Shown here: positions 42,391 to 53,141 of the stretch, in pieces
Layout of the letters: every line of letters begins with the position of its first letter
Numbering within the stretch: position 1 is the stretch's first letter
NCBI GenBank assembly: GCA_016777965.1
Contig: JADHQL010000001.1
Span: forward strand, 25,189-89,188
Direction of reading: 5' to 3'
Source: Fidelibacterota bacterium
GTDB taxonomy: Bacteria > Fidelibacterota > Marinisomatia > Marinisomatales > Marinisomataceae
Length of the DNA: 64,000 nt
The notes under the pieces: model-generated
Told to the model about the DNA's origin: nothing
The model's database searches: none
Seen by the model: the letters and a program-made list of their open reading frames with translations, nothing else
Position numbers and translations under genes: made by a program

Positions 42391-43137
42391 ATGTTACAAA
42401 ATTTTGAATCATTAGTTCTAATTTGGCTGAGTATAGGCTTTATTACCTTTATTACACTGTTAAAAATTCCAGCACCCTATGGTAAATTTTCAAAAACCAA
42501 TTGGGGTCCAATGATTCCAAGTAAACTTGGATGGATAGTCATGGAGATCATTTCGCCTCTTGCCTTGCTATATTTCTTTTTAAATGGATATACAGAAAAA
42601 ACACCAACAAACATTACTTTTATGTCATTGTGGACGCTTCACTACTTTAATAGAAGTGTTATTTATCCTTTAAGACAAAATAATCCTGCTCAAATGCCAC
42701 TTCTTATTACAGTGCTTGCATTCTTGTTTAATGTGATGAATGGATATATAAATGGGACTTATTTTGGTAGTATTCAGGAATATTCTGCTGAATACATGTC
42801 AAATTGGAATTTTATTGTAGGTGTATGCTTATTTATAATCGGTGCATTTATCAATATAAAATCTGACAATATTTTATTGTCATTGCGATCTAAATCAGGT
42901 GAATACAAAATTCCTGAAGGCTTTATGTTTAGATATGTCTCATTTCCAAACTATTTAGGAGAAATTCTTGAATGGATGGCTTTTGCTATAATGACCTGGT
43001 CTTTTGCTGGACTGTCATTTATGATTTGGACCATGGCAAATCTCGTGCCAAGAGCTATTAAGGGGCATCAATGGTATCATAATAAGTTTGAGTCTTATCC
43101 AAAAAACAGAAAAGCAATCTTGCCATTTATTATTTAA
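42391..43137 (+). CDS. steroid 5-alpha-reductase-like membrane protein
   Basis: 248 aa integral membrane protein of the SRD5A / DUF1295 superfamily. Signature parts are APYGKFSKTNWGPMIPSKLGW near the start, the central LWTLHYFNRSVIYPL and the C-terminal PEGFMFRYVSFPNYLGEILEW with RAIKGHQWY near the end, the NADPH and substrate region. Bacterial members may reduce unsaturated lipids. ATG 42391 is preferred over the track start, which lies within the divergent SDR gene. Stop TTAA shared with tadA. Confidence 0.85.
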   Translation: MLQNFESLVLIWLSIGFITFITLLKIPAPYGKFSKTNWGPMIPSKLGWIVMEIISPLALLYFFLNGYTEKTPTNITFMSLWTLHYFNRSVIYPLRQNNPAQMPLLITVLAFLFNVMNGYINGTYFGSIQEYSAEYMSNWNFIVGVCLFIIGAFINIKSDNILLSLRSKSGEYKIPEGFMFRYVSFPNYLGEILEWMAFAIMTWSFAGLSFMIWTMANLVPRAIKGHQWYHNKFESYPKNRKAILPFII

Positions 43138-43622
43138 AATTCTTTTTTCTTCTGTCTTTTTTTAAAAAAATATTCTTGAAGTAGAGCAAAGGATTCACCT
43201 GCAAGCAAATTTCCTCGTACTACAGCAGGTGTATTTAAACTGACATTACCACAAATTTCAAACTTTGAACCGCAAGCTCCATAATCTTCATCATAACAGC
43301 CAAAATATAAAAATTCAATTCGACTATTGACTATCGCTCCAGCACACATTGGGCAAGGCTCTTTAGTAACATACATGGTGCAATCGTTTAATCTCCAGTC
43401 TCCTATGGTATTTGAAGCTGCAGTAATCGCCAGCATTTCAGCATGAGCTGTTGCATCATTTAGTGAATTACATTGATTGTATCCCTGGCCAATAATTTTC
43501 CCTTTATGCACCACAATGGCGCCAACTGGAACTTCATCCTCAAGCATAGCTTTTGTTGCTAACCTCAAGCATTTTCTCATCCAATCTTCATGGGAGGTTG
43601 GAGTTAGATTGTTATCAGACAT
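43134..43622 (-). CDS. tadA: tRNA adenosine(34) deaminase
   Basis: 162 aa zinc deaminase that converts A34 of tRNA-Arg(ACG) to inosine. Zinc and proton-shuttle motif HAEMLAI and PCPMCAGAI, with EVPVGAIVV before them. ATG at 43622 (MSDNN); the track start at 43652 lies in the tRNA. The ATG is only 3 nt (CAA) after the discriminator base of tRNA-Arg(ACG), its own substrate, and no Shine-Dalgarno is visible. Retains all zinc ligands. Confidence 0.95.
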   Translation of the reverse strand: MSDNNLTPTSHEDWMRKCLRLATKAMLEDEVPVGAIVVHKGKIIGQGYNQCNSLNDATAHAEMLAITAASNTIGDWRLNDCTMYVTKEPCPMCAGAIVNSRIEFLYFGCYDEDYGACGSKFEICGNVSLNTPAVVRGNLLAGESFALLQEYFFKKRQKKKEF

Positions 43623-43625
43623 TTG

Positions 43626-43699
43626 TACGCCCGGAAGGACTTGAACCCACAACCTTCTGGTCCGTAGCCAGACGCTCTATCCAATTGAGCTACGGGCGC
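43626..43699 (-). tRNA. tRNA-Arg (anticodon ACG)
   Basis: 74 nt. Acceptor GCGCCCG / CGGGCGT with a G1-U72 wobble, D-arm TAGCTCAATTGGATAGAGC, anticodon stem TCTGG-CTACGGA-CCAGA with ACG, T-loop TTCAAGT, A73, no encoded CCA. The T-stem has one U-U mismatch and one G-U pair. ACG must be deaminated to ICG to read CGU, CGC and CGA. Upstream gltX stop is 59 bp away; tadA starts 3 nt downstream. Confidence 0.95.
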
Positions 43700-43758
43700 A
43701 TATGTAAATCAGTTAAGAATTTATCAATCAAATATCAGAGCTTCAACCTGATAAATTT

Positions 43759-45171
43759 TTAGTCTAATATAGACAAAAGCTTACGAATACGTTTTAAACA
43801 AATATCTTTCCCTAGTAATAGTATTAGATCGAATATACCAGGACCGAAAGTAATACCTGTAAGCGCAACCCTTATAGGTTTCATTACTTTTCCAATCTGC
43901 ACATCATGCTGTGCCATTAAATTGTCAAAAATAAGTTCAATTTCAGATCTATTCCATGTATCGCAATTTTCTAAAGCGCTTTTAAAGTCTGTTAAAATAG
44001 CAACAGCTTCTTCATTAAAGGTTTTAGATATTAAATCTTTATCGTAATCAAGTGATTCTTGAAAAAATAGTCCTGACATTTCAGCAATTTCTGTAATTGT
44101 TTTTGACCTATCTTTAATCAGCTTTACAATTTCTTTTAAATAATTCCAATCAAGTCCATCTCCCCAATCAGGATTTAGTTTATAAATTTCATTCATAGTC
44201 TCTCTAACGCTCATCTCTGTTAGATGTTGCTGTGAAATCCATAATAATTTTTTTTCATCAAATACGGCTGATTTTTTTTGTACTTGATCAAATTGGAAAC
44301 TTTCTATCAACTCTTTTTGATTAAAAATTTCTTTATCAGAATCAGGGTTCCATCCTAGTAACGACAAATAATTCAATATTGCAGTGGCAGTAAATCCTTT
44401 ATCCTTGTACTCTTGCACATTGGTTGCGGCATGTCTTTTACTTAATCTTTTTTTATCTGAACCTAAAATCATTGGCAAATGAGCAAAAATTGGTTCATTT
44501 AGACCCAAAGCTCTGTATACAAGGATTTGTTTTGGAGTGTTTGCTAAATGATCATCCCCTCTAACAACATGAGAAATATTCATGTCTGAATCATCTATAG
44601 CTACCACAAAATTATAGGTGGGCGATCCATCTGATCTAGCAATGATAAAGTCATCTAAGTCCTTGTTTTGAACATTGATTGTACCATATACTAAATCAGT
44701 AAATTCTGTTTCACCTTCTGGAACTTTTAATCTGACAGTAAATGATTTACCTTGATTGAGCAATTCTTTGACTTCATCTTCTGATAAATCTCTATACGTT
44801 TGTGGTACACGAAATACTTCTTTTTTTTGTTCAGATACTAATCGCAACTTATCAAGCTCTTCTTTTTGAAGAAAACAACGATAGGCTGTACCATTATCAA
44901 GCATTTTTGCTATCATTTCTTCATGTCTTATCTTGTTGTTTGATTGAAGTATAATGTCTTCATCCCAATTAAGTCCTAGCCAAGATAAAGCATCGGTAAT
45001 TTGATTAACATATTCGGCTTTAGATCGCTCAAGATCAGTATCCTCAATTCGTAACAAAAACTGACCCTTATTTTGTTTTGCAAAAAGCCAATTAAATAAA
45101 GCAGTTCTTGCACCACCAATATGCAAATAGCCGGTAGGACTTGGTGCGAATCTTACTCGAGGATTCTTCAT
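43759..45171 (-). CDS. gltX: glutamyl-tRNA synthetase
   Basis: 470 aa class Ic synthetase. N-terminal RVRFAPSPTGYLHIGGARTA (HIGH = HIGG), and KKRLSKRHAA (KMSKS type) near residue 240, followed by the helical anticodon domain. The Cys/Tyr zinc ligands of E. coli GluRS are absent (YRCFLQKEE, no CxC), a known zinc-free form. ATG 45171 is 2 nt (CA) past the tRNA-Ser discriminator base; no other start and no Shine-Dalgarno fit. Confidence 0.97.
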   Translation of the reverse strand: MKNPRVRFAPSPTGYLHIGGARTALFNWLFAKQNKGQFLLRIEDTDLERSKAEYVNQITDALSWLGLNWDEDIILQSNNKIRHEEMIAKMLDNGTAYRCFLQKEELDKLRLVSEQKKEVFRVPQTYRDLSEDEVKELLNQGKSFTVRLKVPEGETEFTDLVYGTINVQNKDLDDFIIARSDGSPTYNFVVAIDDSDMNISHVVRGDDHLANTPKQILVYRALGLNEPIFAHLPMILGSDKKRLSKRHAATNVQEYKDKGFTATAILNYLSLLGWNPDSDKEIFNQKELIESFQFDQVQKKSAVFDEKKLLWISQQHLTEMSVRETMNEIYKLNPDWGDGLDWNYLKEIVKLIKDRSKTITEIAEMSGLFFQESLDYDKDLISKTFNEEAVAILTDFKSALENCDTWNRSEIELIFDNLMAQHDVQIGKVMKPIRVALTGITFGPGIFDLILLLGKDICLKRIRKLLSILD

Positions 45172-45173
45172 TG

Positions 45174-45260
45174 CGGAGGCAAGAGGATTCGAACCTCTGA
45201 AGGGCTTGCACCCTTGCTGGTTTTCAAGACCAGTGCATTCAACCGCTCTGCCATGCCTCC
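45174..45260 (-). tRNA. tRNA-Ser (anticodon UGA)
   Basis: 87-nt class II tRNA on the minus strand: GGAGGCA acceptor with TGCCTCC, anticodon stem CTGGT-CTTGAAA-ACCAG carrying TGA, long variable arm, T-arm AGAGG-TTCGAAT-CCTCT, G73. CCA not encoded. Upstream an AT-rich stretch with TATAAT at 45285-45290. gltX begins 2 nt after the discriminator base. Confidence 0.96.
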
Positions 45261-45284
45261 AAAAAAAAACAATGTAATTTATAA

Positions 45285-45290
45285 ATTATA
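45285..45290 (-). promoter_or_regulatory. TATAAT -10 element before tRNA-Ser
   Basis: TATAAT on the minus strand, 24 bases before the tRNA 5' end, a plausible -10 for the tRNA-Ser/gltX/tRNA-Arg/tadA unit. No TTGACA lies at 17 bp. Downstream is a 9-A/T tract. The rest of the 150-bp gap to the YceI gene shows no other feature. Confidence 0.35.
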
Positions 45291-45410
45291 AATGAAAATA
45301 AAAGATAATTACTAGGTAAATTTTATACTTACTTGTTGTTAAAAACTAAATATATTAATTTTCGCAACGAAATATATTTTCAAAAATATTTAAAAGGAAA
45401 CAAAGTACTT

Positions 45411-46142
45411 ATGAAAAAAATTTTACTTATTATCTTATTGACCAATTTAATGTTTGGACAACTATTAAATAATCAAGAGCCAGAACTCAAACCATTAAAA
45501 AAATCCTCAAATATATCTGCGCTTAAAATGGATGAAACAAATATAGATTCTAGAATTATTCTTGACACCACTAGAAGCAAGATTGCTTGGCTAGGAGGGT
45601 TAAAGTTTGCTGTTTCAAATCATGATGGTGAATTAAAAATGTCTAACGGAAATATTTTATTAAAAAATAATATTATATCGGGAACTGTAGTAATGGATAT
45701 GAGTTCTATGACAAATAATGACTTATCTGCTGGTTCAAAAGAAAGATTAATTGGTCACTTAAAAAGTCCTGATTTTTTTCATGTCACAAAATATCCAAAA
45801 GCAAAGCTGAATATTAAATCAAGCAAAATACTTGAAAAGCTCGAAACCGGTAAATACAAAATGTTGATTAATGGAGATATGACTATTAAGGACAAAACTA
45901 ATTCTATAAGCTTTGAAGCCATTGTTGATCTTGATTCCAATATTAAAACTGCTCAAGGAAAACTATCATTTGATAGAAGTGCTTTTGGTGTAGAGTATCG
46001 CTCTGAAATGCATTTAGATAATCCAAATTCATTTTGGAACAAGGTTCAAACCTCCAGAGATGCAGCAAAAGACAAAGTGATTAGAGATATGATTGAAATC
46101 GATTTCAATATAGTCTCGCTTCCAGGCATGCTCTCGAAATAA
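45411..46142 (+). CDS. YceI-like exported lipid-binding protein
   Basis: 243 aa. Signal peptide MKKILLIILLTNLMFG-Q, then a lipocalin-like YceI beta barrel: SKIAWLGGLKFAVSNHDGEL, SGTVVMDMSSM, LKSPDFFHVTKYPKAKL and LSFDRSAFGVEYRS. YceI proteins bind isoprenoid quinones or lipids in the periplasm. The track starts at 45333; ATG 45411 is preferred because AAAAGGAAA lies before it and the signal peptide begins there. Ends one base before the convergent 46144 gene. Confidence 0.9.
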   Translation: MKKILLIILLTNLMFGQLLNNQEPELKPLKKSSNISALKMDETNIDSRIILDTTRSKIAWLGGLKFAVSNHDGELKMSNGNILLKNNIISGTVVMDMSSMTNNDLSAGSKERLIGHLKSPDFFHVTKYPKAKLNIKSSKILEKLETGKYKMLINGDMTIKDKTNSISFEAIVDLDSNIKTAQGKLSFDRSAFGVEYRSEMHLDNPNSFWNKVQTSRDAAKDKVIRDMIEIDFNIVSLPGMLSK

Positions 46143-46143
46143 G

Positions 46144-46329
46144 CTAACCTATAAAACCACGATAGATAAGATAAGGAATAACAATATACAGGGTGACATC
46201 TCGAATGAGATAATACATAAAAATGGCAACACCCAATTTCCAGCCATATTTCTTGAACATGATTCTGATTGCTTCTCTAATACCAGACTCTCTAGTATTC
46301 TTTCGTAATTCGTGAAGGGCTTTAAACAT
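46144..46329 (-). CDS. small membrane protein (61 aa), unknown
   Basis: 61 aa. A basic amphipathic N-terminus (HELRKNTRESGIREAIRIMFKK) precedes a hydrophobic segment (GVAIFMYYLIRDVTLYIVIPYLIY) that may span the membrane once or twice. It ends one base after the YceI gene stop. Next to the yjjX gene at an 18-bp distance, so perhaps co-transcribed. Plausible gene by position and composition; no family recognised. Confidence 0.5.
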   Translation of the reverse strand: MFKALHELRKNTRESGIREAIRIMFKKYGWKLGVAIFMYYLIRDVTLYIVIPYLIYRGFIG

Positions 46330-46347
46330 GTGTGAATATAATACCTT

Positions 46348-46866
46348 TTAATAAAGTTTTGTATTTGTAAAAGGAATTAATGCTAAAATAATTGCATGTG
46401 AATAATAGTCTGTTCTATTAATTAAGTTATCTGTAAGGATTCCCACTGCTCCATTTTTTTGTTTTGAATTAGAGCGTTTAAACACCAAATCATCAGCATC
46501 TCCAAGCTCATACCCCTCTTTAATAAGATTTGAAATTTTTATCGGCAATTGAAATGTTGCTGTTTTTGCTTTACCAATTTTTTGCTTATCTGAAACAACA
46601 ATCCAAGCAAATGCTTCATAATTATTATCAAGTAAGTCTATTCCGCCTTCAATAGAAACAAAATAATCAGCTTTAAGATGTTGAATGTTTTGAAGTCGAT
46701 TAGTTGCTCCTTTCAAGGTTTCATCATTTGACATGGGTTGGTCTGAAACCAAAGAATCAACAGAAACTCCTTCAAATTCAAAACGATCAGTAAAGACTTC
46801 TTCAAAAGCCTTTTTAGTGGCATTAATTTTTACTGGATTTCTTGATGCTATAAGTACTTTTTTCAT
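46348..46866 (-). CDS. yjjX: inosine/xanthosine triphosphatase
   Basis: 172 aa of the YjjX (ITPase/XTPase) family, which hydrolyses non-canonical purine NTPs such as ITP and XTP to keep them out of nucleic acids. Motifs: VLIASRNPVKINATKKAFEE at the start, SDQPMSNDETLKGATNR, and YFVSIEGGIDLL. Overlaps the 46866 gene by one base. Fits the nearby genome-protection gene umuC. Confidence 0.92.
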   Translation of the reverse strand: MKKVLIASRNPVKINATKKAFEEVFTDRFEFEGVSVDSLVSDQPMSNDETLKGATNRLQNIQHLKADYFVSIEGGIDLLDNNYEAFAWIVVSDKQKIGKAKTATFQLPIKISNLIKEGYELGDADDLVFKRSNSKQKNGAVGILTDNLINRTDYYSHAIILALIPFTNTKLY

Positions 46867-47324
46867 TAAAAAATACTGTCAAACAGCGCTTTTGGTGTTC
46901 TGATCATAACTATACCCCATTTAATCAATGGAATTGAGCCTAGCATCGCATTAACCCTAACTCTGCTTTTACGCATCTTTTTAAGAGATTTAGGTTCAGC
47001 GCTATTATTGATTTCTCTCATTTCACGCAATGGAACAATCGTATGGCCAATTATAATAGGAATAAAGTTTACTGGATTTGAATTATTCCCTTCCAAAATT
47101 ATAGTACCTATAATACCCATAAATGAATAACCTGCCTGCGCAAAAAGCACATCATTGCTCTGTTTTGCTAAAGACTTATTAATAATTTTAGTTTGTTTTT
47201 TAATTTCATCTGACAATATTCCTTTAACTGCTTTGTCATGATCTTCTAAGATATTGCCCGTCGATACTTCTTGGCCTAAAGAAAAAGTGTTAAACAAGAT
47301 TAGTATCATGATATAGTGTTTCAT
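46866..47324 (-). CDS. exported protein of unknown function (152 aa)
   Basis: 152 aa. Signal peptide MKHYIMILILFNTFSLG-Q; mature part with a polar N-terminal region, a hydrophobic helix around NPVNFIPIIIGHTIVPL and a C-terminal hydrophobic LGSIPLIKWGIVMI segment, suggesting membrane association. It starts 23 bp after umuC and shares one base with yjjX, so it sits in the SOS-type cluster by position. No family recognised. Confidence 0.6.
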   Translation of the reverse strand: MKHYIMILILFNTFSLGQEVSTGNILEDHDKAVKGILSDEIKKQTKIINKSLAKQSNDVLFAQAGYSFMGIIGTIILEGNNSNPVNFIPIIIGHTIVPLREMREINNSAEPKSLKKMRKSRVRVNAMLGSIPLIKWGIVMIRTPKALFDSIF

Positions 47325-47347
47325 TTTTAGATTTTATTATATACTTA

Positions 47348-48625
47348 CTAAACCTTTAATGTTAAAAATTCGTTCCAATTTGTGGTGTAGCTTGGGGAAA
47401 GTTTTTCTCTTTTAATTGACCAGGACTCATTCTCTCCTTGCACAGCGTATCTAATGGTATCTGACCCAAAAGCTTGATTGATTTGATCAATAGACGCACT
47501 AATACGTTCATCCTTGTCTCTACGGTTGTAAAATAGTGATTGTTGCACCTCATTTGCTTGTACTAAGTCGTTTAATATCACTCCGCATTTCTTATACTCA
47601 TATCCATTTTTATAAATCGCATACAATCCTTCTAAAGCAGCGTTAATGATGCCACTGGTATCATTTAAAGCAACAGGTAGTTGAACGTTGATATACCGGC
47701 GATATTGTGGCAAATCAGTGCGGAAACGATTAGTACATAAATATACCCCGATCGAATTTACAAAACTATTCTGTGATCGTAGCTTTTCAGCAGATCTGGA
47801 AGCATGCGAAGAAATAGCATTTCTCAAGGTATTAAGATCAGAAATCATCCTAGAGAATGACCTAGAAGTTGAAATACTTTTCTTAGTTGCATTTTCATAC
47901 TCTAATTCTATTTTTTTTATACCATTTAACTCATCTACTGTATGCCTGCTAATTACAGTCATATGCTTCTGAATCCATTCTGGATTAGCCTGTTTCAAAT
48001 CATAGGCATTATAAATGCCATTAATCTTCAAAAATTTCTGCTTTCTTCTTCCAATTCCCCAGATATCATGTACTTTAACTTTCTGCAATAAATCCTGATC
48101 ATTAGTACTATCAATTAAACAAACATTATCCTTTCCTATGTCTCTTTTGGATAAATGGTTGGCTACTTTAGCTAAGGTCTTAGTTTTTCCTATTCCAATT
48201 GATACCGGTATTCCGGTCCATTGATAGATCTTGTTTCTAAGTGTTGTAGCATAATCTATGGGATCTGTATAGCGAGGATTGATAGTAACAAATGCTTCAT
48301 CAATAGAATAGACTTCTATCTCAGAGTTACCCGAGCGAATGATATTCATAATTCTATTAGATATGTCCCCGTATAACGCAAAATTTGATGAAAAAATCTG
48401 GATGTCATGAATCTCAACAAGATGTTTAATCTTAAAAACTGGAATTCCCATGGGGATACCTAAATCTTTTACTTCTTGTGAGCGTGCAATAACACATCCA
48501 TCATTGTTTGATAACACAATAACAGGTTTGTTGTTTAATGCAGGATTAAAAACTCTCTCACATGAAGCGTAAAAGTTATTACAATCAACAATAGCTATGT
48601 AGCTATCTTGTTTTATGAATGACAT
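47348..48625 (-). CDS. umuC: Y-family DNA polymerase V subunit UmuC
   Basis: 425 aa error-prone translesion polymerase. AIVDCNNFYASCERVFNP carries the first catalytic Asp, YSIDEAFV the paired Asp-Glu, and IGIGKTKTLAKVANHLSK plus GIGRRKQKFLKINGI form the thumb/HhH region. The C-terminal little finger is present and complete, compatible with full length. It overlaps umuD by 23 bp; both belong to one cluster. Confidence 0.96.
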   Translation of the reverse strand: MSFIKQDSYIAIVDCNNFYASCERVFNPALNNKPVIVLSNNDGCVIARSQEVKDLGIPMGIPVFKIKHLVEIHDIQIFSSNFALYGDISNRIMNIIRSGNSEIEVYSIDEAFVTINPRYTDPIDYATTLRNKIYQWTGIPVSIGIGKTKTLAKVANHLSKRDIGKDNVCLIDSTNDQDLLQKVKVHDIWGIGRRKQKFLKINGIYNAYDLKQANPEWIQKHMTVISRHTVDELNGIKKIELEYENATKKSISTSRSFSRMISDLNTLRNAISSHASRSAEKLRSQNSFVNSIGVYLCTNRFRTDLPQYRRYINVQLPVALNDTSGIINAALEGLYAIYKNGYEYKKCGVILNDLVQANEVQQSLFYNRRDKDERISASIDQINQAFGSDTIRYAVQGENESWSIKREKLSPSYTTNWNEFLTLKV

Positions 48626-49058
48626 AGGTTACAACTCCCCAAACAGAGAAATCCATCTCTTCGGTAATTTCAATTTTCTTATACTCTTTATTTGCTGCAA
48701 CCATAAATAATTTGGTTTTTGTTTTTTGAATTTTTTTTACGGTGAATTCACCATTCAATACACCAATGACAATATCATTATTCTTAGGAGTTTTTGATCG
48801 ATCAACTACCAGCAAGTCTCCATCGTCAATTCCTTCGTCTTGCATAGAATTACCAGAGACTCTGATATAAAATGTTGCAGCGCTGTTTTCTACCAAATAT
48901 TCATTTAAATCAATAGGTAAATCTAAATAATCGTCTGCCGGCGAAGGAAACCCTGCAGACACCATGGTATCTATAAAAGGTATTTCTTTTTTTGAATCTA
49001 CAGAGACGGTAAAAAATTCTAGATTATCTATTGTTTTGATTTTTTTCATGGAATTCAT
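48603..49058 (-). CDS. umuD: UmuD-type self-cleaving subunit (S24 peptidase)
   Basis: 151 aa. The AG cleavage site is MVSAGFPSP (A35-G36), catalytic Ser71 in RVSGNSMQDEGI, catalytic Lys about 108 in EFTVKKI. RecA-stimulated autocleavage yields UmuD', which joins UmuC. A TGTAA-N4-TTACA dyad lies directly upstream of the ATG. ATG 49058 (MNSM) by the track; MKKIK at 49049 is an alternative. Confidence 0.95.
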   Translation of the reverse strand: MNSMKKIKTIDNLEFFTVSVDSKKEIPFIDTMVSAGFPSPADDYLDLPIDLNEYLVENSAATFYIRVSGNSMQDEGIDDGDLLVVDRSKTPKNNDIVIGVLNGEFTVKKIQKTKTKLFMVAANKEYKKIEITEEMDFSVWGVVTYVIHKTR

Positions 49059-49474
<416 letters not shown>

Positions 49475-49479
49475 AAAAA

Positions 49480-49923
49480 TTATTTATCGGAGGATTCTTC
49501 AGCTTGTTCAGCTGATTCGTCTTCAGTTGCCGGTTCAGCTTCTTCAGCTGGTGCTTCCTCTACAGGATCTTCTTCTGTAGGCTGTTCTTCAGCTGGTGCT
49601 TCTTCTGTAGGTTCTTCTTCAGCTGGTGCTTCTTCTGTAGATTCTTCTTCTGCTGGTGCTTCCTCTACAGGAGCTTCTTCTGTAGGCTGTTCTTCAGTAG
49701 ACGCCTCTTCAAGAACTTCTCCAAACGATAAAACTTGCTTGGATTCTTCTTCCATTCTTTTCAAAGCCTGATCAAGATTCTCATTTTCTTCTAATCTTAC
49801 CATGTTTTCTAAGAACTTGATATGACCAGTATCTTCAGACTTAACAGACTTAATATGTTTTACATATTTAAAGTTGCTGTCTTGCTTAGTTAGCTTTGAT
49901 GTAAATGTTTGTTTTTTTGCCAT
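49480..49923 (-). CDS. Glu/Pro/Ala-rich tandem-repeat protein
   Basis: 147 aa. A basic N-terminal part (MAKKQTFTSKLTKQDSNFKY...) with an IKFLENMVRLEE helix, followed by an acidic low-complexity tail in which a ten-residue unit TEEAPAEEEP repeats several times. The tail is encoded by 30-bp and 15-bp DNA repeats at 49546-49690. No function assigned; the basic head and acidic tail suggest a nucleic-acid- or ribosome-associated protein, which is conjecture. The Ser-rich plus-strand ORF opposite is a shadow. Confidence 0.75.
   Translation of the reverse strand: MAKKQTFTSKLTKQDSNFKYVKHIKSVKSEDTGHIKFLENMVRLEENENLDQALKRMEEESKQVLSFGEVLEEASTEEQPTEEAPVEEAPAEEESTEEAPAEEEPTEEAPAEEQPTEEDPVEEAPAEEAEPATEDESAEQAEESSDK
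49546..49690 (-). repeat. 30-bp tandem repeats encoding Glu-rich tail
   Basis: The 10-mer AGCTGGTGCT (plus strand) recurs at 49546, 49591 and 49621 and, with one change, at 49651; the spacing is 45, 30 and 30 bp, all multiples of 15. The repeat unit runs about 30 bp and encodes TEEAPAEEEP. Such arrays expand and contract by slippage, so length may vary between strains. Confidence 0.8.
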
Positions 49924-49978
49924 AACTGATGGTGAAGTTAATGTAGGATTTTAAAAACTCAAATATTTAATTAATTAT

Positions 49979-50986
49979 TTATTCTTGTTCTTTTGATTCA
50001 GCTAAATCTCTCATATCAACTACTGAATCATGCTCGTCAACAATTTCCTGTCCAAGAATGGTTTCAATTGCATCCTCTAAGGTGATTAAGCCAGTAAGCA
50101 TATCGCTATTATCTTTAACTAAAGCCATATGATCACGATTTTTTATAAACAATTCCAAAACCTTATCAATTGGGTCGTTTTCATTAACAAATGGAACTTC
50201 TTGTGAAATTTCATGCATTCTTGTACTAAACTGATCATCCGCCTTACGATTAATGATTTCATATCGATTAACCATACCTTTTATAACGTCTAAATTACCT
50301 TCAAAAATAGGAATTCTAGTGAAATCTAATGTTTCATGCTCTTCAAGCACTTGACCAACCGTAAAATCGCTTTTTAACGCAAATATTACTGACCTAGGGG
50401 TCATAATATCTTTTGCCTTCACGTCTTTTAGTTTTAAAGTGTTTTCAATAATATCAGTTTCTTGTTCTTCAAGAACACCTTCATCTTCACCCATTTCTGC
50501 CATTGCAATTACTTCTTCTCTAGTTACAGTAGCTTCATCTTTGCCAAAGTTTGAAATATATTCTGCTAGAAGCACTAATGGATAAGTAAAGAATATTAAA
50601 ACTTCTATAATTAAAGTCGTGTTACCTATTAAACCTCTCCAGTAAACACTTCCAATAGTTTTTGGTATAATTTCAGAAAACACTAAAATCAATAAAGTCA
50701 AAATTCCAGAGGCAATGGCAACTGCACTTTCTCCATACAATTCTAAGGTTTGCGCTCCAACTCCGGCAGCTCCTAGTGTATGTGCGAATGTGTTTAATGT
50801 TAGAATTGCTGCTAGAGGACGATTAATATTTTCCTTAAAACGTTCTAAACGATTTCCTTGAGAAGCATTTTGTTTGGATAAAATAGATGAATATGATGCA
50901 GGCGTAGAAAGCAAAACTGCCTCTAGAAGCGAGCATAAAAAAGATAAAACTAATGCTAAGAAGAAGTATGCTAACAGTAGTGTCAT
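49979..50986 (-). CDS. CNNM/CorC-type hemolysin family transporter
   Basis: 335 aa. N-terminal DUF21 (CNNM) membrane domain (about 1-140, e.g. AYFFLALVLSFLCSLLEAVLL), then two CBS domains with the linker MAEMGEDEGVLEEQETDIIENTLKLKDVKAKDIMTPRS. Thought to act in magnesium or cobalt transport. No C-terminal CorC_HlyC domain is visible after the CBS pair. It overlaps the YwaF-like gene by 4 bp. Confidence 0.9.
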   Translation of the reverse strand: MTLLLAYFFLALVLSFLCSLLEAVLLSTPASYSSILSKQNASQGNRLERFKENINRPLAAILTLNTFAHTLGAAGVGAQTLELYGESAVAIASGILTLLILVFSEIIPKTIGSVYWRGLIGNTTLIIEVLIFFTYPLVLLAEYISNFGKDEATVTREEVIAMAEMGEDEGVLEEQETDIIENTLKLKDVKAKDIMTPRSVIFALKSDFTVGQVLEEHETLDFTRIPIFEGNLDVIKGMVNRYEIINRKADDQFSTRMHEISQEVPFVNENDPIDKVLELFIKNRDHMALVKDNSDMLTGLITLEDAIETILGQEIVDEHDSVVDMRDLAESKEQE

Positions 50987-51684
50987 TTATCGAAAATCCG
51001 CCTTGCAATAACGTCAAGAACATAAAAATGAATAATTGCAAAAACTTCAAATCCAATTATATGGTATGGATCTTGTAAAACGAATGGACTATCTGCTATC
51101 GGTGCTTTAGCTAAATACATGTAATTAGCACCATTACCTATGATATAATTGGCCTGTGAAACCAGCACCACGATAAGCTGCAAATAAATAAAACTTGTCC
51201 ACCATGCGTTATGTCTTAATCTATTCTCATAATAAATCATAAGCCAAGCTGGAATAATTAGCAACATTGAGTGTCCGACATAATAATCAAAAATGTTCCA
51301 AGGAGATGTTCCTCCTGTAAATTCTGGTGTTAAAATCGAATGGATAAATCCTATAATACCAAAATAATATAAAAACTCAAAAAGCAGTTGTTTTCTGTAA
51401 AACACTACAACACCAGCAAGAATTCCTGAGATTCCACATAATTGTATAGGAAGATGTGTCGCTAAAATATAATTATCTGACAAAATATGGGACATTTGAA
51501 CAGTAAACACTTTGATTAACTGATAGGCTCCCATTCCATACAACATATAATCACGTTGTTTAGAAGATAATTTCTTACCTATAAACAACATGAAAGGAAC
51601 AAAAATTAGAACAAAGAAAACACCACTCCACCAAAATTGACCCCCAATTTCCGGTGCCCAGTGAGCAACTGCTGTTTTATCCAT
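50983..51684 (-). CDS. YwaF / TIGR02206 family membrane protein
   Basis: 233 aa integral membrane protein with six or seven helices. Family landmarks: AHWAPEIGGQFWWSGVFFV start, THLPIQLCGISGILAGVVVFYR, and LTPEFTGGTSPWNIFDYYVGHSMLL. Function unknown. Co-transcribed with the CNNM gene (4-bp overlap) and the VOC gene upstream (14-bp gap). Confidence 0.87.
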   Translation of the reverse strand: MDKTAVAHWAPEIGGQFWWSGVFFVLIFVPFMLFIGKKLSSKQRDYMLYGMGAYQLIKVFTVQMSHILSDNYILATHLPIQLCGISGILAGVVVFYRKQLLFEFLYYFGIIGFIHSILTPEFTGGTSPWNIFDYYVGHSMLLIIPAWLMIYYENRLRHNAWWTSFIYLQLIVVLVSQANYIIGNGANYMYLAKAPIADSPFVLQDPYHIIGFEVFAIIHFYVLDVIARRIFDK

Positions 51685-51698
51685 TAATAAAATTCTCC

Positions 51699-52109
51699 TT
51701 ACTTTGCAAAAATCTGATTATCGTCATTAAATGCCTTAAATTCAAGCGCATTTCCTGAGGGGTCTTTAAAAAACATTGTAGCCTGCTCACCTGCTTCTCC
51801 CTTAAAACGAATTTTAGGCTCGATGATGAACTGAATTTTTTGCTCTAATAAATGATTTTTTAACTCTTTCCACTGAGACATAGTTAACACTACTCCAAAA
51901 TGAGAGGCAGGGACCTCATCTCCGTCGACAATATTTGAAGCTGGGTGATTGTTTTCATCAACAAGATGAGCTACTACTTGATGACCAAACATATTGAAGT
52001 CAATCCATGCATCAGATGATCTTCCAACTTCACATTTTAATATATTTACATAAAAGGATTTAGTGGATTTCAAATCTGTAACCGGAAAGGCTAAATGGAA
52101 AGGTCTCAT
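51699..52109 (-). CDS. VOC superfamily (glyoxalase/dioxygenase-like) protein
   Basis: 136 aa with the beta-alpha-beta-beta-beta repeats of the vicinal oxygen chelate fold: HLAFPVTDLKSTKSFYVNILK (typical first motif), HFGVVLTMSQWKEL and FFKDPSGNALEFKAFND (conserved metal-ligand Glu and DPDGN-like motif). Could be a glyoxalase, extradiol dioxygenase or resistance protein. A 102-bp spacer with nothing evident lies upstream. Confidence 0.87.
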   Translation of the reverse strand: MRPFHLAFPVTDLKSTKSFYVNILKCEVGRSSDAWIDFNMFGHQVVAHLVDENNHPASNIVDGDEVPASHFGVVLTMSQWKELKNHLLEQKIQFIIEPKIRFKGEAGEQATMFFKDPSGNALEFKAFNDDNQIFAK

Positions 52110-52211
52110 TATAACAATATTAGTAAATTGTACATATCAATCCAAGGATTATATGATTATAGTAGTGTTTAAATTTATATTTAAAGTAGTACTTTAATAT
52201 ATTTATCTAAA

Positions 52212-52964
52212 TCAAGCATTATTAGCAAATAAAATTATCTCTTTAATAAATTTATCATTGTATTTAGGCGCTGTGATAATATCATTATGTCCACTTCCAG
52301 GATAAATACTATACGATGCATTAAGTTTTTTAACAAGATGCATAAATGCTCTTTTCGGAGTAGTTTTATCCTTGCTTCCAAACACTGAAAGAACATTATC
52401 AGGACCGCTAAAATGTATACGCTCTAAATGTGAATTCCATATACTTTTTGAATTGAAATGCTCCATTAAAAATGTACGATTTTCACGTACTTTATGTTTT
52501 GACAACTCCATTTTTATATTTTCAGGTGTGTCATCAGTAAAATAAAGCGATCTTGTTAACCATTTAGGCAACTTTCCACTAAAAAGCATTCTCATTCCAA
52601 TCTTTTTAATAAATTTTGATATACGATTAATTTGCATCTGCTGCATTGCTTTCATAGCTACTCTCTTTGGCGCAAGACCTGTGTTAACAAAAATTAACTT
52701 ATGAATGACATCTCCAAGCTGTTGAGCAACATAAATTGCAAACAATCCTCCTAAACTATGTCCGACGAGTACAAAATTTCTGTCAGGATACTTTTTCATG
52801 ATTTCTTTGACAGACTTTATTGAAGATTCAAATGCATTATCTAGCGAAGAAAAGTCTAAATCTATTAGTGAATACTCTATAGATTTTTCTTCAAGCTTTG
52901 GTACTATTATGCGCCAGAAATGAGAGCGAATGCCTACTCCATGAAAAAAAATAAAGTGATTCAT
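52212..52964 (-). CDS. alpha/beta hydrolase
   Basis: 250 aa alpha/beta-hydrolase fold. Oxyanion region FIFFHGVGIRSHFW, nucleophile elbow LVGHSLGGLFAIYVA (Ser), catalytic His in YPGSGHNDII, and an Asp in VFGSKDKTTP. Lipase/esterase type; substrate unknown. Its ATG lies 8 nt (CAAATCTT) after the tRNA-Leu(UAA) discriminator base with no Shine-Dalgarno. Confidence 0.88.
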   Translation of the reverse strand: MNHFIFFHGVGIRSHFWRIIVPKLEEKSIEYSLIDLDFSSLDNAFESSIKSVKEIMKKYPDRNFVLVGHSLGGLFAIYVAQQLGDVIHKLIFVNTGLAPKRVAMKAMQQMQINRISKFIKKIGMRMLFSGKLPKWLTRSLYFTDDTPENIKMELSKHKVRENRTFLMEHFNSKSIWNSHLERIHFSGPDNVLSVFGSKDKTTPKRAFMHLVKKLNASYSIYPGSGHNDIITAPKYNDKFIKEIILFANNA

Positions 52965-52972
52965 AAGATTTG

Positions 52973-53058
52973 TGCCCGGGGCCGGACTCGAACCGGCACG
53001 GAGTATTATCTCCGAGGGATTTTAAGTCCCTTGTGTCTACCAATTTCACCACCCGGGC
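52973..53058 (-). tRNA. tRNA-Leu (anticodon UAA)
   Basis: 86-nt class II tRNA: acceptor GCCCGGG with CCCGGGC, D-arm TGGTGAAATTGGTAGACAC, anticodon stem AGGGA-CTTAAAA-TCCCT with TAA, long variable arm, T-arm GCCGG-TTCGAGT-CCGGC, A73, no CCA. Follows tRNA-Cys by 9 nt and precedes the hydrolase gene by 8 nt. Confidence 0.96.
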
Positions 53059-53067
53059 TACACATTG

Positions 53068-53141
53068 AGGCGTCGGTCGGATTCGAACCGACGAATAACG
53101 GTTTTGCAAACCGGTCCCTTAAACCACTTGGGTACGACGCC
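53068..53141 (-). tRNA. tRNA-Cys (anticodon GCA)
   Basis: 74 nt: acceptor GGCGTCG with CGACGCC, anticodon arm around TTGCAAA carrying GCA, T-arm GTCGG-TTCGAAT-CCGAC, U73 as expected for Cys. The anticodon stem has a C27-U43 mismatch in my folding. First of a tRNA-Cys/tRNA-Leu pair, 30 bp after the pmbA stop. Confidence 0.93.

Follow-up and report, generated by a model that had tools for sequence, protein, structure and literature searches.

tRNA genes abutting start codons in a compact Marinimicrobia genus: possible release of near-leaderless mRNAs by tRNA 3' processing

In a 64,000-nt stretch of DNA (the window), four tRNA genes end within a few nucleotides of the start codon of the next protein gene. 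This arrangement raises the question of whether excision of the tRNA could itself create the 5' end of the mRNA, leaving it practically without a leader.

The window is part of a 400-kb genome assembly (G000; 57% complete), whose GltX protein shares 79–96% identity with named loci of Candidatus Marinimicrobia (SAR406). The host belongs to a streamlined genus of this lineage with genomes of ~1 Mb (0.6–1.0 Mb in the same-genus assemblies); streamlining of epipelagic Marinimicrobia has already been published (PMC6143742). A near-complete relative, G030 (1.02 Mb, 95% complete, more than 1000 genes, i.e. ~1070), was taken whole for genome-wide counts; genes were called by a simple script, and start errors dilute the genome-wide SD and promoter-box values given below.

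Junctions between tRNA genes and coding sequences

ARAGORN identified five tRNAs at the window loci, and the junctions were read from the sequence (all features listed here lie on the minus strand). tRNA-Arg(ACG) (43626..43699, positions 1–73; C74 encoded at 43625) is separated by 3 nt (CAA) from the ATG (43622) of tadA (43134..43622), coding for a tRNA adenosine-34 deaminase of 162 aa; its match to PRK10860/TadA (7.7e-43), obtained with a query that began at an internal Met, falls just below the curated cut-off. tRNA-Ser(UGA) (45174..45260, positions 1–73; C74 at 45173) lies 2 nt (CA) from the ATG (45171) of gltX (43759..45171), coding for a 470-aa glutamate-tRNA ligase (TIGR00464, 5e-164). 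Both are secure genes, and their N-termini settle their start codons. Downstream of tRNA-Ser(GGA) (49390..49474; C74 at 49389), a spacer of 7 nt (CAAAAAA) precedes the ATG (49382) of a membrane-like ORF of 104 aa (49068..49382). Finally, tRNA-Cys(GCA) (53068..53141; C74 at 53067) is followed by tRNA-Leu(UAA) (52973..53058; C74 at 52972) and, 8 nt later (CAAATCTT), by the ATG (52964) of a 250-aa alpha/beta hydrolase (52212..52964), whose BioH/MenH-like matches are below the cut-off.

The sequence thus bears out the spacers of 3, 2, 7 and 8 nt between discriminator base and ATG reported in an earlier note on this DNA, as well as the lack of a Shine-Dalgarno (SD) motif in any of them. Genome-wide, such abutment is not found at every tRNA: the tRNA-Trp/secE and tRNA-Thr/tuf operons, known from bacteria and both present in the window genome, have the same tandem order of tRNA and coding sequence, but they retain a longer leader with a clear SD, whereas the abutted genes have neither. 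An 84-aa ORF located 3 nt past tRNA-Ser(GCU) in the window genome was set aside because of its low coding score.

On its other side, tRNA-Ser(GGA) starts 5 nt (49475–49479) past the stop codon of the upstream coding sequence (49480–49923), and elsewhere in the genus some tRNAs lie 2–5 nt past a stop codon, which leaves little room for a separate promoter.

Analysis of the genus samples revealed 50 junctions, from 10 tRNA families, in which the tRNA directly abuts the coding sequence, as in transcripts of the mitochondrial type (spacers of 1–10 nt). The start codon is nearly always ATG (GTG in some tadA relatives), and no SD was found at any of the 50. In G030, spacers of 2–10 nt were observed at 8 of the 23 same-strand junctions, i.e. 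those of tRNA-Asp, Leu(UAG), Gln (followed by prs), Phe, Lys(CUU), Leu(UAA), Ser(UGA) and Arg. Counted by tRNA family, an SD occurs in 0/10 cases with short and 9/16 with long spacers (p = 0.004), although this difference is partly built in, since the motif does not fit into 10 nt or less. Spacers of at least 14 nt often carry one (secE, tuf, Met and, in G010 and G028, Phe); the gene for a 177-aa protein behind tRNA-Phe has a 10-nt spacer without SD in G030 and one of 20–21 nt with SD in G010 and G028. A phylum-wide count of tRNA ends followed within 9 nt by ATG was uninformative, because chance ATGs are frequent and large-genome relatives score equally high.

Conserved spacing and genome compaction

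The earlier note had allowed that close relatives might show normal spacing, which would make these junctions chance cases. They are not, since the spacing at tadA and gltX is kept while the sequence varies. In 16 of the 19 genomes of the genus, tadA follows tRNA-Arg(ACG) at 3 nt, with the letters CAA, CTA, CTT, CAC or CTC; the other three have 5, 5 and 7 nt. The tadA start codon is conserved, with GTG in some relatives. Between tRNA-Ser(UGA) and gltX the spacer reads CA at 13 of 14 genus loci and C at the remaining one; in G010, gltX begins directly after C74. The 8-nt spacer between tRNA-Leu(UAA) and the hydrolase gene recurs at 9 of 10 loci. Only the pairing of tRNA-Ser(GGA) with the 104-aa ORF is mostly not conserved, and in most relatives other genes follow this tRNA. 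The layout is old in the genus.

tRNA-Arg(ACG), the main substrate of bacterial TadA, lies directly 5' of tadA wherever the latter was found in the genus (19 of 19 genomes). The tadA frame is open upstream, but reading of the gene through the tRNA was rejected, as the frame is lost in those relatives whose spacer measures 5 or 7 nt.

Outside the genus, many families of the order carry tRNA-Ser(UGA) 5' of gltX, at distances of 9 to 873 nt; over this range, none of the order relatives inspected showed an SD upstream of gltX. Since gltX is devoid of an SD whatever the spacer, its SD-free initiation is probably older than the 2-nt spacer.

Comparison with ordinary gene pairs revealed that short spacing is explained by compaction. 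In G030, gaps of 10 nt or less (non-overlapping pairs) are no commoner between tRNA and coding sequence (8/23) than between coding sequences (158/472; p = 1), and the difference in SD frequency between the two sets of short gaps (0/8 versus 43/158) is not significant (p = 0.11). What exceeds chance is that the spacing is preserved so exactly throughout the genus. The idea of a systematic route, put forward in the earlier note, is borne out only in part: about 8 of more than 1000 G030 genes are concerned, their spacing is not shorter than that of gene-gene pairs, and across the order gltX does without an SD even behind spacers of 57–873 nt.

These results also bear on whether compaction is the entire explanation, with tRNA processing playing no special role and the SD-less starts being served by a generic mechanism, as in most genes of this genome. 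Such a reading agrees with the equal gap distributions, with the approximately 70% of operon-internal starts that have no SD, and with the state of gltX across the order. However, given the footprint of the 30S subunit, a ribosome should not fit on a precursor whose AUG lies 1–3 nt past a folded acceptor stem, so that the tRNA would still need to be cut first. Moreover, the spacing at tadA and gltX is kept nearly exactly throughout a genus in which TadA proteins are 66–99% identical. We therefore regard compaction as the sole explanation as rather unlikely.

Leaderless signature and the tRNA 3' end

At promoter-proximal starts, a -10 box at leaderless distance (TANNNT at -13..-11) was detected in 58 of 161 cases in G030 (~16% expected; p ~ 9e-10) and in 22 of 58 in the window genome (~16% expected; p ~ 1e-4); operon-internal starts were not enriched for it. 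This excess is a leaderless-promoter signature, and its presence at genes with their own promoters is an indirect sign that the genus probably translates leaderless mRNAs. A 400-kb stretch of the order relative G020 gave no clear excess, with a small number of starts. An SD is present at about 1/4 to 1/3 of operon-internal starts, and at merely 5–9% of starts behind gaps of 21–50 nt, which is near background.

As leaderless promoters appear to be common in the genus, a promoter within the tRNA gene could in principle yield a leaderless mRNA by transcription initiation instead of processing. However, the TANNNT box is absent at this distance from all 50 short junctions, and the function of the tRNA dictates its sequence, the acceptor being GC-rich; we consider this origin highly improbable.

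The conserved layout, free of both SD and -10 boxes, together with the leaderless signature, makes processed near-leaderless mRNAs the most economical reading, and one that is partly supported by the sequence data. We assign a probability of roughly 0.6 to the proposal that tRNA 3' processing releases leaderless or nearly leaderless mRNAs in this compacted, probably leaderless-competent genome. The tRNA and the downstream gene would be carried on one transcript, from which the tRNA would be removed by RNase P at its 5' end and by an endonuclease cutting at the encoded C74 or immediately 3' of it. The freed mRNA would carry 0–9 nt ahead of its AUG (or GUG, as in certain tadA relatives), could not use an SD, and would be initiated as a leaderless mRNA, a mode apparently widespread among promoter-proximal genes of the genus. 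Compaction would have produced the short spacers, which would have been tolerated because leaderless initiation was available. Those of 7–10 nt amount to a short leader, and the term leaderless does not strictly apply to them; a study of Streptomyces and Escherichia coli counted leaders of less than 10 nt as leaderless (PMC4681348).

The cut site is suggested by the tRNA ends. The earlier note stated that CCA is not encoded, which is correct for the complete triplet; nevertheless, C74 is encoded in all 18 tRNAs of the window genome, and the first base of each spacer is thus part of the tRNA. In five further genomes C74 was found in 34/34, 31/31, 42/42, 23/24 and 31/33 tRNAs, and across the genus and order hardly any tRNA examined is without it. 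Of 150 unselected matches in genomes of the phylum, a set that includes some non-tRNAs, 141 have the base as well. The genes mostly do not continue with CA at positions 75 and 76, and a CCA-adding enzyme is present. Encoded C74 in nearly every tRNA indicates that 3' cleavage may fall after this base, leaving a leader of 0–9 nt.

RNase Z, proposed in the earlier note as the nuclease, fits these data poorly. No match above the curated cut-off was obtained in 61 relatives, including 24 genus genomes, although just 9 of 14 controls pass this cut-off, and the absence of a canonical RNase Z is suggestive only. Below the cut-off, the genus genomes yielded only metallo-beta-lactamase (MBL) proteins. 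For a divergent MBL protein of G019, RNase Z is the best-matching family; the MBL proteins of the 95%-complete G030 do not resemble RNase Z. Some genus members carry an MBL-fold protein of ~366 aa that has a hydrophobic stretch at its N-terminus and weakly resembles RNase Z. Cleavage by RNase Z after the discriminator, giving an mRNA that begins with C74, is how bacteria generally process tRNAs whose genes lack CCA, and the divergent MBL-fold proteins might perform it; but an invariant encoded C74 would serve no evident purpose if it were removed, and we judge this version improbable. RNase E/G, found in 19 of the 24 genus genomes, is a candidate for the 3' nuclease. Cutibacterium acnes has no obvious RNase Z and cuts between the Cs of CCA (PMC3848588), a precedent for the proposed site. 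In C. acnes and Streptomyces coelicolor the cut likewise falls after C74, but there CCA is encoded, whereas here C74 alone is, with the same cut predicted. Tentatively, a nuclease distinct from canonical RNase Z may cut after the encoded C74 and leave a tRNA needing only CA, together with an mRNA with a 0–9-nt leader translated as leaderless, a possible form of bacterial tRNA punctuation.

Known systems and significance

The punctuation of animal mitochondrial transcripts by tRNAs was reportedly described by Ojala, Montoya and Attardi. There, excision of the tRNA sets the 5' ends of mRNAs that have hardly any leader or none, and translation is SD-independent; the same is predicted here from sequence. 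In contrast to mitochondria, tRNAs do not punctuate most mRNAs of this genome (8 of ~1070 genes in G030); promoters, SD motifs and leaderless promoters are used otherwise. In addition, the mitochondrial 3' cut is made by RNase Z (ELAC2), while no canonical RNase Z was recognised here.

Leaderless mRNAs of bacteria are known from mycobacteria (PMC4633059), C. acnes (PMC3848588) and Streptomyces (PMC4681348). The genes described here resemble them in the lack of an SD, the AUG or GUG start and the genome-wide promoter signature. Those mRNAs are defined by transcription start sites, however, whereas in the present genes tRNA maturation would create the 5' end. No report of leaderless mRNAs made in this way in bacteria was found in the open-access literature.

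If the proposal is correct, the essential genes gltX, tadA and prs of an abundant uncultured ocean lineage would be expressed via the maturation of tRNAs. The production of tRNA and of protein would then be coupled, and bacteria would have a parallel to the tRNA punctuation of mitochondria. The case would further illustrate how a genome with access to leaderless translation can dispense with promoter, leader and SD. How the phylum completes its tRNAs, given an encoded C74 and no RNase Z that can be recognised, is a question that lends itself to testing.
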